Positions 8,646 to 46,558 of a stretch of DNA of 64,000 bases are shown piece after piece (position 1 is the stretch's first letter; every line of letters starts with the position of its first letter). A program made the position numbers and the translations under genes. The DNA is from Fodinibius sp. Rm-B-1B1-1 (lineage in GTDB: Bacteria > Bacteroidota > Rhodothermia > Balneolales > Balneolaceae): contig NZ_JBCFYD010000002.1 of NCBI RefSeq assembly GCF_038594945.1, positions 1,364,001 to 1,428,000 on the forward strand. The letters are read 5' to 3'. The notes beneath the pieces are model-generated. The model made no database searches. It was not told where the DNA came from and was given only the letters and a program-made list of their open reading frames with translations.

Positions 8646-10757
8646 ATGCAATATTTGAAAGCGCTTTCATTCACAATTATTAGCTTATTTTTATTCATGG
8701 CCTGTAATATGGAAGACCTGTCAACCGTCTCTTCCCCTAATGGAAATCTTTTGGTGACATTCTCGCTATCAGATTCGGGAACCCCACAATACGCCGCACA
8801 ATACGAGGGGGCCCAAATTATTGACACTTCTGGCCTGGGATTTGAATTCAGAGATGCACTCCCGTTAAATGACAGCCTACGGATCACAAATATTGAAAGC
8901 CGGTCGTTTGATGAAACGTGGCAGCCGGTGTGGGGCGAGCAAGAGGAAGTCCGGAATCAGTATAATGAGTTGCTGATCTCACTTGAAGAAACAGGCAATA
9001 CCAACCGTACTATCAATGTACGATTTCGAGTTTTTGATGATGGGATCGGGTTCCGCTATGAAGTTCCCGAACAAGAATCTATGGGCGATAGCTTGTTCAT
9101 TATGGATGAAAAAACTGAGTTTGCCCTTACCGGCGACCACACCAGCTGGTGGATTCCCGCCGACTACGATAGCTACGAATACAATTACAAGCAGTCAAAA
9201 GTAAGCGCGATTGATGCCTCTGAATTCGCCAGTGAAAATGAACGTGTGGATCGCCAGATTGATAACTTTAACGCAGCTAATACTCCCCTCACCATGAAAA
9301 CGGCTGATGGGGTTTACCTTAGTTTCCACGAAGCAAATCTCACCGACTATGCGGGTATGACCCTTGGTGTAACTGGAGATTTAAAGTTAAAAAGTGAACT
9401 CGTACCCTGGGCTGATGGCACGAAAGTCAAAACTAAAGCCCCTTTTAATACGCCCTGGCGTACTATTCAAGTTAGCAAAAGCGCTGGTGATCTGGCTGAG
9501 TCATTCATCCTTCAAAATCTAAACAACCCCAATAAACTTAAAAATACTTCCTGGATAGAACCCATGAAGTACACTGGAATTTGGTGGGAAATGCATATCG
9601 AAAAATCAGCCTGGGGTATGGAAGAAGCTGCAGAAGGATCTTTTGACAATCCGGGAAGATCAGCCCATGGAGCTACCACCGAAAATGCTAAACGTTATAT
9701 AGATTTCAATAACCGGGCTGAAATCCGTGGACTGCTCATCGAGGGCTGGAATACCGGCTGGGAATACTGGGGAACTGATTCGCTGGGCTTTTTCGATTTC
9801 ACTACCCCCTACCCTGATTTCGATCTGCAGGAAGTAGCCGATTACGCCCAAGAAAATAATGTAGCCTTGGTTGGTCATCACGAAACATCGGGACAAGCTG
9901 CCCACTACGAAACCCGGCTTGATACTGCTTTTCAACTATATCAAGATCTGGGCATCCATCACGTGAAAACAGGCTATGCCGGCGGCGTAATCCCCAAGGG
10001 AGAATATCACCACGGACAATGGATGGTTCGCCATTATCGTAACGTGGTGGAAAAAGCAGCGAAGTACCAAATTGGCGTCAATGCTCACGAACCTATCAAG
10101 GCAACCGGGCTACGACGGACCTATCCCAATATGATGACCCGTGAAGGCGTTCGTGGTATGGAATATAATGCCTGGAGCGAAGGCATGCCTCCCGGGCATA
10201 CCACTATTCTACCATTTACTCGTGTTCTGGGAGGGCCTATTGATTACACACCCGGCATTTTTGATATCACATTTGATGAATATTCAGATGACGAACAAGT
10301 AAAGTCGACCTTAGCTAACCAGTTGGCACTGTATGTTGTGCTCTACAGCCCCATGCAGATGGCGGCCGATCTTCCCGAAAACTACCTGACTGATGATGGA
10401 GAATTTCATCCCATGTTTCAGTTTATTCATGAGGTACCTGTAGACTGGGATACCTCACACATTCTGGACGCTCAAATTGGTGATTATGTAGTGACTACGC
10501 GGAAAGAAAAAAGAACAGATAACTGGTTTTTAGGAGCTATTACCGATGAAGAGGAACGTACAAAGAAAGTTTCCCTGGATTTCCTTGATGATGGCAAAAC
10601 ATACGAGGCTATCATCTATCATGATGGAGAAAATGCTCACTGGCAGGATAATCCCACCGATTATCAAATAAAGACCCAGGAAGTGACAGCTGGTACTACG
10701 CTTGAACTCTGGATGGCTCCGGGTGGCGGAACGGCCATCAGCTTTGAGGCGTTATAA
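8646..10757 (+). CDS. GH97 alpha-glucosidase lipoprotein (SusB-like, inverting type)
   Basis: Glycoside hydrolase family 97 enzyme, expected to cleave alpha-glucosidic bonds of starch-derived oligosaccharides in the periplasm or at the outer membrane. The N-terminus is a lipoprotein signal (hydrophobic run to LFLFMAC, Cys at about 20). Then comes the GH97 N-terminal beta-sandwich beginning SPNGNLLVTF, the (beta/alpha)8 barrel with YTGIWWEMHI, and a C-terminal beta domain. The stretch HHVKTGYAGGVIPKGE has Gly where retaining GH97 enzymes carry an Asp nucleophile. The Glu-rich motifs NAHEP (Glu about 481) and REGVRGMEYNAW (Glu about 500 and 506) are present. By family knowledge this is the inverting SusB pattern. 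703 residues is normal. No SusC/SusD genes are adjacent, so it is not in a typical utilisation locus here. Confidence 0.93.
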   Translation: MQYLKALSFTIISLFLFMACNMEDLSTVSSPNGNLLVTFSLSDSGTPQYAAQYEGAQIIDTSGLGFEFRDALPLNDSLRITNIESRSFDETWQPVWGEQEEVRNQYNELLISLEETGNTNRTINVRFRVFDDGIGFRYEVPEQESMGDSLFIMDEKTEFALTGDHTSWWIPADYDSYEYNYKQSKVSAIDASEFASENERVDRQIDNFNAANTPLTMKTADGVYLSFHEANLTDYAGMTLGVTGDLKLKSELVPWADGTKVKTKAPFNTPWRTIQVSKSAGDLAESFILQNLNNPNKLKNTSWIEPMKYTGIWWEMHIEKSAWGMEEAAEGSFDNPGRSAHGATTENAKRYIDFNNRAEIRGLLIEGWNTGWEYWGTDSLGFFDFTTPYPDFDLQEVADYAQENNVALVGHHETSGQAAHYETRLDTAFQLYQDLGIHHVKTGYAGGVIPKGEYHHGQWMVRHYRNVVEKAAKYQIGVNAHEPIKATGLRRTYPNMMTREGVRGMEYNAWSEGMPPGHTTILPFTRVLGGPIDYTPGIFDITFDEYSDDEQVKSTLANQLALYVVLYSPMQMAADLPENYLTDDGEFHPMFQFIHEVPVDWDTSHILDAQIGDYVVTTRKEKRTDNWFLGAITDEEERTKKVSLDFLDDGKTYEAIIYHDGENAHWQDNPTDYQIKTQEVTAGTTLELWMAPGGGTAISFEAL

Positions 10758-10784
10758 AATTCGACGTCACTAAAACATCGAGTT

Positions 10785-11081
10785 ATGTTTACGCTTTATC
10801 ACCAAAAGTCGGATACTTTTACAAACTGGGTAGAAAACAAACTACAGGAGATGGTCGTAGCCCACAAAGTTGTTGATATAGATGAATATAATTCCGATTC
10901 CCTACCCGAAAATATCTCTACTGATGACTTGCCGATACTGAGTGATGGCCACAAGCATTGCTCATCTCCTGAGGAGATCAAAACATTTCTCGAGGAATTA
11001 GACAGAGACTTGCAGTTTAGTCGAAGCCTGACCTCTGATGCCTGTGTCATAGATCCCGATAACCCCAAGAAGTGTCTTTAA
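10785..11081 (+). CDS. Small protein, possibly thioredoxin/glutaredoxin-like fold without active-site Cys
   Basis: 98 residues, starting 27 bases after the GH97 stop, so probably cotranscribed. The start MFTLYHQ is followed by a helix and a beta strand (VVAHKVVDID). Then comes LPILSDG, resembling the cis-Pro strand of glutaredoxin/GST N-domains, and a final helix SPEEIKTFLEELDRDL. The usual CxxC position (after LYHQKS) holds no Cys. Two Cys sit at the extreme C-terminus instead (DACVIDPDNPKKCL). The fold guess is inference from pattern only and the function is unknown. A strong terminator follows at 11125-11164. Confidence 0.7.
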   Translation: MFTLYHQKSDTFTNWVENKLQEMVVAHKVVDIDEYNSDSLPENISTDDLPILSDGHKHCSSPEEIKTFLEELDRDLQFSRSLTSDACVIDPDNPKKCL

Positions 11082-11124
11082 AAGCAATACCCTTTTAAAC
11101 AAATTGGTTTGATATCCCAAGAAG

Positions 11125-11164
11125 GATCCATCCGGCAACAATAACTTCGGATGGATCTTTTTTT
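11125..11164 (+). terminator. Intrinsic terminator after the GH97 / small-protein pair
   Basis: A perfect 10-bp stem, GATCCATCCG with CGGATGGATC, is followed by seven T. It abuts the stop codon of folD on the opposite strand, so it closes the plus-strand transcript between convergent genes. Confidence 0.85.
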
Positions 11165-12056
11165 ATTCCGGATAAATCGACTTCTTGGCAGCAAGCAGGG
11201 TATTTTTCATCAACATAGCAACCGTCATTGGCCCTACACCACCAGGCACGGGCGTAATCCAGCTGGCTTTTTCTTTCACACTTTCAAAGTCACAATCTCC
11301 CACCAAGCTGTAACCTTTATCTTTGGTTTCATCAGCCACCCGATTGATACCCACGTCAATTACCACAACTCCTTCTTTAACCATCTCTCCTTTTATAAAC
11401 TCTGGCTGGCCAGCTGCAACCACTAAAATATCCGCCCCGATCGTATGCTTGGTAAGATCCTTTGTATACTTATGGCAAACAGTCGTCGTGGTTTTACCCT
11501 GTTCACCACTCTCTTTGTTCAACAGAATAGAAATAGGTCGCCCCACAATATTGCTGGCTCCAACTACTACGGCATGTTTTCCTTTTGTGGGGATGCTATA
11601 GTGCTTTAATAACTCGAGAATTCCTGCCGGTGTACACGAGCGAAAACTGGGTTGTCCCACCGTTAACCGGCCAACATTCATCGGGTGAAATCCATCTACA
11701 TCTTTACGAAAATCAATAGATTCAATAACATCGTGCGCTGACAGGTGATTGGGAAGTGGCAGCTGAACCAAAATACCATCTACCGAATCATCTTCATTTA
11801 ATTTATTTATAGTAGTTTTCAGCTCTTTGCCTGAAATCGTATCCGGCAACCGCATAGTATCCGTTTCGATCCCCACCTCTTTACAGGCTCGCGTTTTCGC
11901 TCCCACATACACATCTGAAGCAGGGTTATTACCCACCAAAACAACCTGTAGAAATGGTGGACGATGGCCCGCTTCTGTCCAGTCTTCTACATCCTGGCGA
12001 ACCTCATCACGTGTTAGCTGAGCAACTTTTTTTCCGTCTATAATCTTTGCTGACAT
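11163..12056 (-). CDS. folD: Bifunctional methylene-THF dehydrogenase / methenyl-THF cyclohydrolase
   Basis: Interconverts 5,10-methylene-, methenyl- and 10-formyl-tetrahydrofolate, supplying one-carbon units in the cytoplasm. The N-terminal catalytic domain has VGNNPASDVYVGAKTRACKEVGI with the catalytic Lys, followed by QLPLPNHL and the signature DVDGFHPMNVGRL. The C-terminal Rossmann domain shows GASNIVGRPISILL for NADP binding and ends with TPVPGGVGPMTVAMLM. 297 residues is the normal length, and the ATG (MSAKIIDGKKVA) is at the expected place. It is downstream of the response-regulator gene on the same strand, but an intergenic hairpin (12098-12146) separates them. Confidence 0.97.
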   Translation of the reverse strand: MSAKIIDGKKVAQLTRDEVRQDVEDWTEAGHRPPFLQVVLVGNNPASDVYVGAKTRACKEVGIETDTMRLPDTISGKELKTTINKLNEDDSVDGILVQLPLPNHLSAHDVIESIDFRKDVDGFHPMNVGRLTVGQPSFRSCTPAGILELLKHYSIPTKGKHAVVVGASNIVGRPISILLNKESGEQGKTTTTVCHKYTKDLTKHTIGADILVVAAGQPEFIKGEMVKEGVVVIDVGINRVADETKDKGYSLVGDCDFESVKEKASWITPVPGGVGPMTVAMLMKNTLLAAKKSIYPE

Positions 12057-44395: not shown

Positions 44396-46558
44396 ATGAA
44401 CTTATCAAAATCACCAGGCAAGATATTCAATTTTCTATATCGATGGTTTTTAAGGGGAAGATGGTTAATGGGCAAAAAGAAATGTAAAACATTCGGTAAA
44501 ATGAATGGTGATAATTCACAAAAAAGAATTGAACAAATCTATGTAATTAACTTAGATCGACAACCGCAACGTTGGAAACAAACTATCCAAGAACTATCAA
44601 ATATTCTTGATTCAAATGACAAACCATTAAGTGATCTTACAACTCGTATTTCAGCTATCGATGCCAGCCAGTTTGATAAATCTATGGATATTGATGTAGT
44701 TAATCGAACCTATACACTTGGTGATCAACTATTTGTGGAACCCCGCCAAACATTGCCTTCCCAATTGGACCTTGACAAGCAAATCGAAATGACAGAACAA
44801 GAAATTGCTGTTGCACAATCTCATATTAAGACTTGGAGGAAAATTGCTAACGGAAACGACAAATATGCCTTAGTCCTTGAAGATGATGTTGGAATTCGTC
44901 TCAATTTCGCAAATTATGTTGATCAGATATGGCAACAAATTTGCTCATATCAAGATAAATCTTCCTTATTCGATATTCTCTATTTATCTTATAAAGAGGT
45001 AGAAAATGGCGCAGAGAAGCACCCAATAACAAAGGATGTTTTCAAACTCTTCCGAGGCCTATGGTTTCTATCTGGTTATGTAATATCAAAAAAGGGGGCG
45101 AAAAAATTACTGGACTTCCTCCCAATTTGTGGACCTGTCGATCTTTGGATCAACCATAAGTTTAATGAGATTACTGCTTTGACTGCCTCAGAATCTGTAA
45201 TTTTTCAACGTATGGACCAAAACTCGGAAAATTCCTATTCTGTTCTACCTGCCCTTTCAGAAATTGGTGTTCTCAACAATGAAGCGCCCAGTTTATTTCA
45301 AGCACCATCTTTGGTAAAACCTATATTCGCCATAGGTACCAAAAACTCAGGACTGACCTCACTCTCGATGGCTTTATCTATGTTAGGATATAGGTGTTGC
45401 AGCGATCTTGACGATTTACCTAATGAGGAAAAAAACAAGCTAATATCGAAGGGTAAGCCACGAATATTTGATGCTTATGTAAACATCGGGTTCGTAGAAA
45501 AATATCTTAGTAAACTTTCAAAACTTTATCCAGAAGCCAAATTAATTATAGCAATTGACAGTGGTTCGAATATAGACATTTCAAAATATATTGACGGATG
45601 GTCAGAACGTTTCTTAGTCTTGCCTTCTACTGAACAAAGAAAATGGAAATTACTATGTGAGTTTCTAGGTACTGTCCCACCAGCATCTCCTTACCCATCA
45701 TTACCAGAGAAAGGAAAACGCATGATCTCTCAACATAATAGAAAGAGATCAAAAAAGAATTCCTCTGTGCAAAAGCTTAAGTCTGACTCCTTACCTTGGA
45801 TAGTTTCATCAAAAAATGGATGGAACGGTATCCCCTTAAATACAGAATTGAAAAGCTCATTTGCTACTAGCAAAAATAGTATTAGAATTTCTAGTAATTT
45901 TGACCAATTAGATAAGTCTACATGGTTTCTTCGAGAGGATACCTTTCCTGGAAACTTAGCCTTATTTAAACCATCTAACATCTACTTGAATAATGATGCC
46001 CCCACAGAAATTTATGTTAGACAAGAAAATATGAAGGTTAGAAACTACAGTTCAGGAGCTCTTACGACTCATACGGAATTTCTATTTGGTCGTTTTGAGG
46101 CCATTCTTAAACCACCTAAAACAACTGGTCTTATCACTGGCTTGTTTTTGCATCGCAACTCTCCAAGACAAGAAGTTGATATAGAATTTCTTGGTAAATA
46201 TCCGCAAAAATTATTACTAAATGTCTTTTATAACCCAGGTGATGAGGGAGCGCGATTCGATTATGGATATAGAGGAACACCAATTTTAGTAAACTTAGGA
46301 TTTGATGTAACTAATGACTTTCATTCTTATGCTATCGAATGGGAACCAGATGAATTAAGATGGTTTGTTGATGATCAACTCATTCACAGACGTGTTAATT
46401 GGAATCCAACACCAATACCTCACCTTCCAATGAAATTTCATGTAAACCATTGGCCCTCAAAGTCACGTGAATTAGCAGGCAAGTTATCAAATAAATCTCT
46501 TCCTTCATCTACGTTATTAAAGTCAGTTGAATTAGCTACTTCTCAAATGAACTGCTAA
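44396..46558 (+). CDS. Three-part protein: GT25 glycosyltransferase + sulfotransferase-like + GH16 domain
   Basis: 720 residues in three segments. (1) About 45-285: LPS-type family 25 glycosyltransferase, with IEQIYVINLDRQPQRW, TEQEIAVAQSHIKTWRKI, LVLEDDVGI (about 159-167) and WFLSGYVISKKGAKKLLDF. (2) About 307-440: sulfotransferase-like P-loop region, FAIGTKNSGLTSLSMALSMLG resembling the PAPS-binding loop of bacterial sulfotransferases, then YPEAKLIIAI and WKLLCEFLGTVPPASPYPS. It looks shortened and may not be active. (3) About 470-700: GH16-like jellyroll with catalytic-type motif EVDIEFLG (Glu593, Asp595, Glu597), then HSYAIEWEPDELRWFVDDQLI and FHVNHWP. There is no signal peptide, although GH16 enzymes are normally exported. 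The AT-rich base composition matches the gene before it. The fusion is in one unbroken frame. Domain calls are by motif; substrate unknown. Confidence 0.8.
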   Translation: MNLSKSPGKIFNFLYRWFLRGRWLMGKKKCKTFGKMNGDNSQKRIEQIYVINLDRQPQRWKQTIQELSNILDSNDKPLSDLTTRISAIDASQFDKSMDIDVVNRTYTLGDQLFVEPRQTLPSQLDLDKQIEMTEQEIAVAQSHIKTWRKIANGNDKYALVLEDDVGIRLNFANYVDQIWQQICSYQDKSSLFDILYLSYKEVENGAEKHPITKDVFKLFRGLWFLSGYVISKKGAKKLLDFLPICGPVDLWINHKFNEITALTASESVIFQRMDQNSENSYSVLPALSEIGVLNNEAPSLFQAPSLVKPIFAIGTKNSGLTSLSMALSMLGYRCCSDLDDLPNEEKNKLISKGKPRIFDAYVNIGFVEKYLSKLSKLYPEAKLIIAIDSGSNIDISKYIDGWSERFLVLPSTEQRKWKLLCEFLGTVPPASPYPSLPEKGKRMISQHNRKRSKKNSSVQKLKSDSLPWIVSSKNGWNGIPLNTELKSSFATSKNSIRISSNFDQLDKSTWFLREDTFPGNLALFKPSNIYLNNDAPTEIYVRQENMKVRNYSSGALTTHTEFLFGRFEAILKPPKTTGLITGLFLHRNSPRQEVDIEFLGKYPQKLLLNVFYNPGDEGARFDYGYRGTPILVNLGFDVTNDFHSYAIEWEPDELRWFVDDQLIHRRVNWNPTPIPHLPMKFHVNHWPSKSRELAGKLSNKSLPSSTLLKSVELATSQMNC

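Follow-up and report, generated by a model that had tools for sequence, protein, structure and literature searches.

What could a single protein do that joins a glycosyltransferase, a sulfotransferase-like and a glycoside hydrolase domain, and what kind of genetic element carries it? This question is raised by one gene in the stretch of 64,000 nucleotides analysed here (hereafter the window). The original prediction had read an unbroken frame of 720 codons with GT25 motifs (INLDRQPQRW, LVLEDDVGI), a sulfotransferase-type motif (FAIGTKNSGLTSLSMALSML) and a GH16 motif (EVDIEFLG). On re-reading, this frame, which starts with ATG, and all of its motifs were borne out, and the trio of folds was recovered by Pfam and by a model of the middle segment analysed with Foldseek and VIA-align 2. 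The fusion gene comes second in a pair, directly after a gene for a partner glycosyltransferase (Table 1). No classical signal peptide was seen by eye at the fusion N-terminus, in agreement with the prediction.

Table 1. Positions in the window of the partner gene, the fusion gene and the parts of the fusion protein (residue numbers refer to the respective protein).
Feature	Position	Strand	Basis
Partner glycosyltransferase, Gly_transf_sug (PF04488), DXD, 281 aa	43524..44369	+	Pfam E 6.3e-10; co-occurrence
Fusion of GT25, degenerate sulfotransferase fold and GH16, 720 aa	44396..46558	+	Pfam, alignment, models
Basic amphipathic N-terminal stretch of the fusion, residues 1-34, net charge +9	44396..44497	+	model helix 7-23; moment and charge in 14 rows
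GT25 domain, residues 47-248, EDD at 162-164, followed by GP.D.WIN at 246-253	44534..45139	+	Pfam, alignment
Sulfotransferase-fold domain, residues ~306-445, PAPS motifs lost	45311..45730	+	alignment, segment model, Foldseek, VIA-align 2
GH16 domain, residues 543-692, ExDxE = E593, D595, E597	46022..46471	+	Pfam, alignment, model

The two outer domains retain the hallmarks of their families. Glyco_transf_25 (PF01755) matched the window fusion with an E value of 1e-18 (68.4 bits, Pfam cut-off 24) and all ten members of alignment A1 at E 0.001, and the acidic residues of the EDD motif are invariant in A1 (10/10) and in a second alignment, A2 (5/5). Glyco_hydro_16 (PF00722) matched within residues 465-705, where a GH16 domain had been predicted, with an E value of 1.3e-29 (103.3 bits, cut-off 22); it also matched 10/10 A1 members, and the catalytic ExDxE is kept in 13/13 aligned rows. 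For a low-confidence model of the whole fusion (pLDDT 61, five sequences), Foldseek gave GH16 beta-glucanases as the best matches; the 50 matches listed were all GH16-type enzymes or constructs derived from them, and the best fold matches of the GH16 part were beta-1,3-1,4-glucanases. Judged by family, GT25 and GH16 would be sugar-transferring and glycan-cleaving domains, and it is possible that the former builds and the latter trims a glycan.

The middle domain presents a different picture. Sulfotransfer_4 (PF17784) barely exceeded its Pfam cut-off in the window fusion (25.2 vs 22.8 bits), and only two of the ten A1 members reached E 0.001 for this part. The segment, for which a sulfotransferase fold had been predicted at residues 305-445, was modelled alone (149 aa, pLDDT 79) and gave five Foldseek matches under E 0.001, all of them sulfotransferases. 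VIA-align 2, whose ranking is confined to the matches delivered by Foldseek, placed SgdX2 first (Z 10.9, rmsd 3.6, 134 residues), followed by Cpz8 (Z 10.8, rmsd 3.5, 139 residues) and schistosome sulfotransferases (Z 9.9); other P-loop proteins scored about 8. Sulfotransferases bind PAPS through two motifs, the 5'-PSB loop [KR][ST]G and the 3'-PSB R-D/N after the second core strand. Neither is present in any of the 13 aligned rows, so that the predicted sulfation is not supported and an active sulfotransferase was rejected; a K or R in the loop column is kept by three rows (Flavobacterium, Sphingobium and Rhizobium), in which the S/T-G is gone. Conservation is also lowest in the middle segment: across the 13 rows, 41 of 231 columns are invariant in GT25, 2 of 140 in the middle and 50 of 212 in GH16, and mean pairwise identities are 0.47, 0.34 and 0.52, respectively. 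From this conservation and the retention or loss of motifs, we infer that GT25 and GH16 have probably been selected as enzymes and the sulfotransferase fold as a scaffold.

The order GT25, sulfotransferase fold, GH16, which the original prediction had proposed to look for elsewhere, recurs in 13 further rows, of which 12 are complete and one is cut by a contig end; with the window and with the Aliarcobacter plasmids merged into one row, the comparison comprises 14 rows. The hosts are Flavobacterium, Campylobacterota, alpha- and gammaproteobacteria, two genomes of the window's phylum and phage contigs. By tblastn, 143 plasmid records were matched, and the whole fusion was found in nine of 72,556 (four from Aliarcobacter and one each from Rhizorhabdus, Klebsiella, Citrobacter, Sphingobium and Rhizobium); the identical nine were recovered with the Rhizobium fusion as query. 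Two of these host plasmids come from sphingomonads, and four of the nine records are typed as conjugative. Furthermore, the fusion is present in one Flavobacterium metagenome bin, in two of 393 further genomes from the same phylum as the window and in four IMG/VR viral contigs, one of them cut by the contig end. These four were found by a profile scan, and a single-sequence scan of the viral contigs gave nothing; two further IMG/VR contigs carry the GT25 part only. No match was obtained by tblastn in 50,697 phage records with the window and Rhizorhabdus fusions or in phage records with the partner of L046 (loci are given by L numbers where needed), and a distant blastn search with the Citrobacter cassette DNA, which detects only about 65-70% identity or more, found none in 5,426 E. 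coli genomes. Identity to the window fusion ranges from 33 to 50% among the nine A1 relatives and from 36 to 46% in A2. Stand-alone GT25 proteins, about 30% identical to the fusion GT25 and sharing GPVDLWIN with it, were seen on two phage contigs (L050:7863-8750 and L051:4315-5202) with genes reading as DNA polymerase, GroEL and NAD synthetase; behind each lies a short ORF resembling, by reading, a 2-oxoglutarate oxygenase.

The partner glycosyltransferase, whose D127 and D129 are invariant in 14/14 rows, accompanies the fusion without exception. Searched alone, it was found in the same nine of 72,556 plasmids, the same four viral contigs and the same three of 394 genomes, and partner and fusion thus form a strict pair. 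The gene trees of the two proteins share 7 of 11 splits, and cassette genes overlap by 4 bp in L045 and L046. In nine of the 14 rows a NodU/TobZ-like carbamoyltransferase lies beside the pair, either downstream, upstream or divergently oriented. The copy of the Citrobacter cassette (L035:3021-4622) matched nodul_NodU with an E value of 9.9e-75 and 252 bits against a cut-off of 1000; the profile match refers to this copy, and the others were assigned by annotation, tblastn or reading. No carbamoyltransferase was found in the window's genome, in the Flavobacterium bin or in three plasmid records and the L048 contig, where the search covered that record alone. Another carbamoyltransferase search also matched copies without the pair in regions that were read (L053, L054 and L055). 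One of these, in a Salmonella plasmid operon (L053:9995-14337), is a related carbamoyltransferase with 49% identity, whose neighbours are annotated as thymidylate synthase, inosine/xanthosine triphosphatase and amidohydrolase and resemble a nucleotide-modifying set. Some cassettes appear to be decaying: the partner is split into two ORFs on an A. butzleri plasmid (L032:11080-11929), and the Rhizorhabdus carbamoyltransferase is interrupted by an IS4-type transposase gene (L033:14220-16781). A Sinorhizobium sojae plasmid (L052:1298-1444 and 10031-11179) carries a partial carbamoyltransferase, 82% identical to that of the Citrobacter cassette, and a short ORF annotated as family 16 glycosylhydrolase, and is perhaps a decayed cassette.

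Several observations show that plasmids and prophages carry the cassette between unrelated bacteria. In the window, the pair is inserted between glgC and an exonuclease gene and has a lower GC content (0.350) than the remaining sequence (0.432). Of 11 genus mates, 10 have these two genes next to each other with no cassette at the site; the remaining one likewise lacks the cassette there, and no glgC was found next to its exonuclease gene. Descent within the genus was rejected, as four of the 11 genus mates match in the GH16 part only and the site is cassette-free in 10 of 11. Two of these ten have a small ORF in the gap (L080:4137-4544 and L081:3428-3973), which may therefore be a repeated insertion site. 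Contrary to the kinship of the species, the window fusion groups with the Aliarcobacter plasmid fusion (tree support 100/98). Transposase, recombinase or integrase genes occur in six of seven plasmid stretches, and L047 and L049 contain terminase genes together with ORFs reading as serine recombinases. On two plasmid stretches, from Citrobacter freundii (L035:896-14932) and Aliarcobacter butzleri (L032:11950-26097), the cassette lies together with predicted drug-resistance genes.

The neighbours that were read are anti-phage, phage, transposase, plasmid or housekeeping genes, with no indication of a sulfated exopolysaccharide locus. PADLOC found defence genes within about 10 kb of the cassette in eight of the 13 other rows, at distances of 0.2 to about 10 kb. 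A complete Wadjet system, JetA-D, lies 470 bp downstream of the cassette in L044, and DUF4297 and HerA end 237 bp upstream in L031. In L048, PDC-S53 adjoins the fusion and GajA and GajB (Gabija) lie about 4 kb away; this GajA covers profile positions 115-694 of 694 and may thus be short. Other neighbours are PDC-S06 (0.3 kb), AbiD (4 kb) and SngA/SngB (6-10 kb) in L033, Orf5/HEC-06 (0.4 kb) in L037, an NsnA-like protein (3 kb) in L035 and SoFic (6 kb) in L036. Of the four Aliarcobacter plasmids, three have SduA (Shedu) less than 2 kb away and one has Lit at 5 kb; a protein of about 1,230 residues encoded upstream of the Aliarcobacter cassette (L038:4676-8365 and L039:4899-8591) had no PADLOC match. 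Among the genes read, no named defence gene lies beside the pair in the window, L034 or L045. PADLOC was applied to L034, where two proteins scanned singly gave no match, and left out the window neighbours, L045, L047 and L049. In L046, the cassette is preceded by genes for a portal protein and a DNA methyltransferase that belong to a head module of P2 type. Head genes of this module match the portal, terminase, scaffold and head-protein PHROGs and are arranged as in P2. The contig ends there, so that the gpA side is not visible. A study of E. coli P2-like phages describes the region between gpA and gpQ as a hotspot of anti-phage systems, and its main text contains neither 'glycosyltransferase' nor 'carbamoyl' (PMC9122126).

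The excess of defence genes near the cassette is suggestive; it is not significant, and the protein sets behind it were picked by reading. For the PADLOC batches, 75 proteins were taken from the 159 features annotated around the cassette and 105 from the 334 in distant control stretches of the same seven plasmids, chosen after the annotations had been seen. Cassette, transposase, integrase and resistance genes, most short genes and one edge-cut gene were excluded; for the control stretches, their outer parts and some of the conjugation genes were left out as well. The 105 control proteins gave seven protein-family matches at E 1e-20 and hence at most seven proteins. Among the 75 from around the cassette, at least 11 distinct proteins, in six of the seven plasmids, had a PADLOC match, which is a lower bound because 25 of the 32 foreground families are listed and batch members are not named. 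Fisher's p is 0.085 with seven control proteins and 0.068 with six. Since the cassette often lies near known anti-virus genes, it may itself be an unrecognised anti-phage system.

From the domains, motifs, strict pairing, mobility and neighbours of the cassette, we infer a localisation, an order of reactions, a product and an anti-phage role. Our best reading is that the cassette is a mobile operon that acts against phages by altering an envelope glycan or glycolipid and so preventing adsorption or injection, a tentative proposal that, taken as a whole, is nearly as likely to hold as to fail. The basic amphipathic N-terminus would anchor the fusion to the inner side of the cytoplasmic membrane, where the partner glycosyltransferase and then GT25 would add sugars stepwise to a membrane acceptor. 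The degenerate sulfotransferase fold would serve as a non-catalytic spacer or binding module, GH16 would cut or transfer the beta-glucan-like product, and the carbamoyltransferase, where present, would cap it. The product would most likely change an envelope glycan or glycolipid and thereby block adsorption or injection, so that the plasmid or prophage would confer defence or exclude superinfecting phages. Consistent with a possible peripheral membrane tether, residues 1-34 are basic in 14/14 rows (net +4 to +9), and the best 18-residue stretch is amphipathic at a shuffle p under 0.05 in 10 of 14 rows, a value flattered by the test, which first picks the best stretch. However, it is unusual for the GH16 enzyme of an envelope pathway to be cytoplasmic, and neither a flippase nor a polymerase gene accompanies the cassette; both points count against an envelope target. 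Sphingomonads are not known to make LPS, and with two sphingomonad hosts LPS cannot be the general target.

An alternative is an intracellular anti-phage system, in which the two glycosyltransferases and the carbamoyltransferase would act inside the cell on a macromolecule of the phage or the host (protein, DNA, RNA or nucleotide), GH16 would act as reverser or activator, and phage replication or host growth would stop. All parts of the cassette look cytoplasmic by reading, and the defence-gene neighbours fit such a system as they fit an envelope-directed one; the LPS-free sphingomonad hosts agree with it as well. The PDB relatives of the GT25 part include the protein-glycosylating collagen galactosyltransferase. 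Furthermore, a member of the carbamoyltransferase family is reported to act on 5-hydroxymethylcytosine of DNA and RNA (PMC8670742). However, the cassette has no sensor, nuclease, base-oxidising or thymidylate-synthase-like gene, and the characterised GH16 relatives have extracellular glucans as substrates. On balance, an intracellular mode of action is possible and rather doubtful.

It is unlikely that the cassette decorates surface glycans without any role against phages, for instance in biofilms or in interactions with plant or animal hosts, and that the defence genes nearby are island cargo. The control comparison, the lone copies in the window and L045, the one copy on a Rhizobium plasmid and the transposase or integrase genes near six of the seven plasmid copies would all be accounted for in this way. 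Less easily explained are Wadjet and DUF4297-HerA within 0.5 kb of the cassette, GajA and GajB close by, and the position of the L046 copy in a P2-like phage. An improbable alternative is the biosynthesis of a small carbamoylated glycoside for chemical defence or as a signal. TobZ-type carbamoyltransferases act on antibiotics, and the cassette enzyme matches their family; however, it was not found with five of the 14 copies (four of them searched in a plasmid record, contig or unfinished genome only), and in the loci that were read the pair is not accompanied by any gene for a core scaffold, an exporter or resistance. The original proposal, a single protein that builds, sulfates and trims the precursor of a sulfated exopolysaccharide, agrees with the presence of all three folds and is highly improbable given the missing PAPS-binding motifs. 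A sequencing error or chance join of separate genes has practically no likelihood, as 12 other complete copies and one cut by a contig end have the same order, and the three-domain content was checked by Pfam in 10/10 A1 members.

A cassette that blocks phages would be a defence system of carbohydrate-modifying enzymes only, with a composition absent from PADLOC-DB 2.0.0, and would provide a rationale for fusing GT25, a dead sulfotransferase fold and GH16 in one protein. It might even be that immunity arises from sugar enzymes alone, with a glycosyltransferase pair, a dead sulfotransferase module, an intracellular hydrolase and an optional carbamoyltransferase marking a molecule that the phage needs by glycosylation (and carbamoylation) and the hydrolase setting or reversing the mark; the chances of this appear small to modest. 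Irrespective of its function, the cassette has crossed phyla on plasmids and prophages, with two copies near drug-resistance genes.

Each domain belongs to a known family, and the trio, the pair and the cassette were absent from PADLOC-DB, the NCBIfam equivalogs and the literature searched. Fusion, partner and carbamoyltransferase matched none of the 5027 models of PADLOC-DB 2.0.0 at E 0.01, the cassette was not found as an equivalog in NCBIfam (with one carbamoyltransferase copy scanned), and no such cassette was found in a literature search whose scope fell short of most subscription papers and bioRxiv-only work. The GT25 part resembles LPS enzymes and collagen galactosyltransferase in profile and EDD motif, but is fused here to two further domains. 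Likewise, the GH16 part shares profile, ExDxE and beta-1,3-1,4-glucanase fold matches with the lichenase, ExoK and xyloglucan-enzyme types, but belongs to a protein without a visible signal peptide and scores well below the NCBIfam cut-offs (BglS 100 vs 300 bits, ExoK 68.3 vs 350 bits). The middle domain has the fold of SgdX2, Cpz8 and the schistosome sulfotransferases, but comprises only about 140 residues and has lost both PAPS motifs, and the Citrobacter carbamoyltransferase matches the NodU/TobZ profile, but lies far below the cut-off and is tied to a glycosyltransferase pair. With the defence systems of PADLOC-DB 2.0.0 (2023), the cassette shares neighbourhoods and vehicles. A further parallel is offered by gtr, the prophage glycosyltransferase cassettes of serotype conversion, which also consist of mobile glycosyltransferase genes and could exclude phages; in contrast to gtr, the cassette described here has no flippase or polytopic transferase, uses other enzyme families and is spread across phyla.
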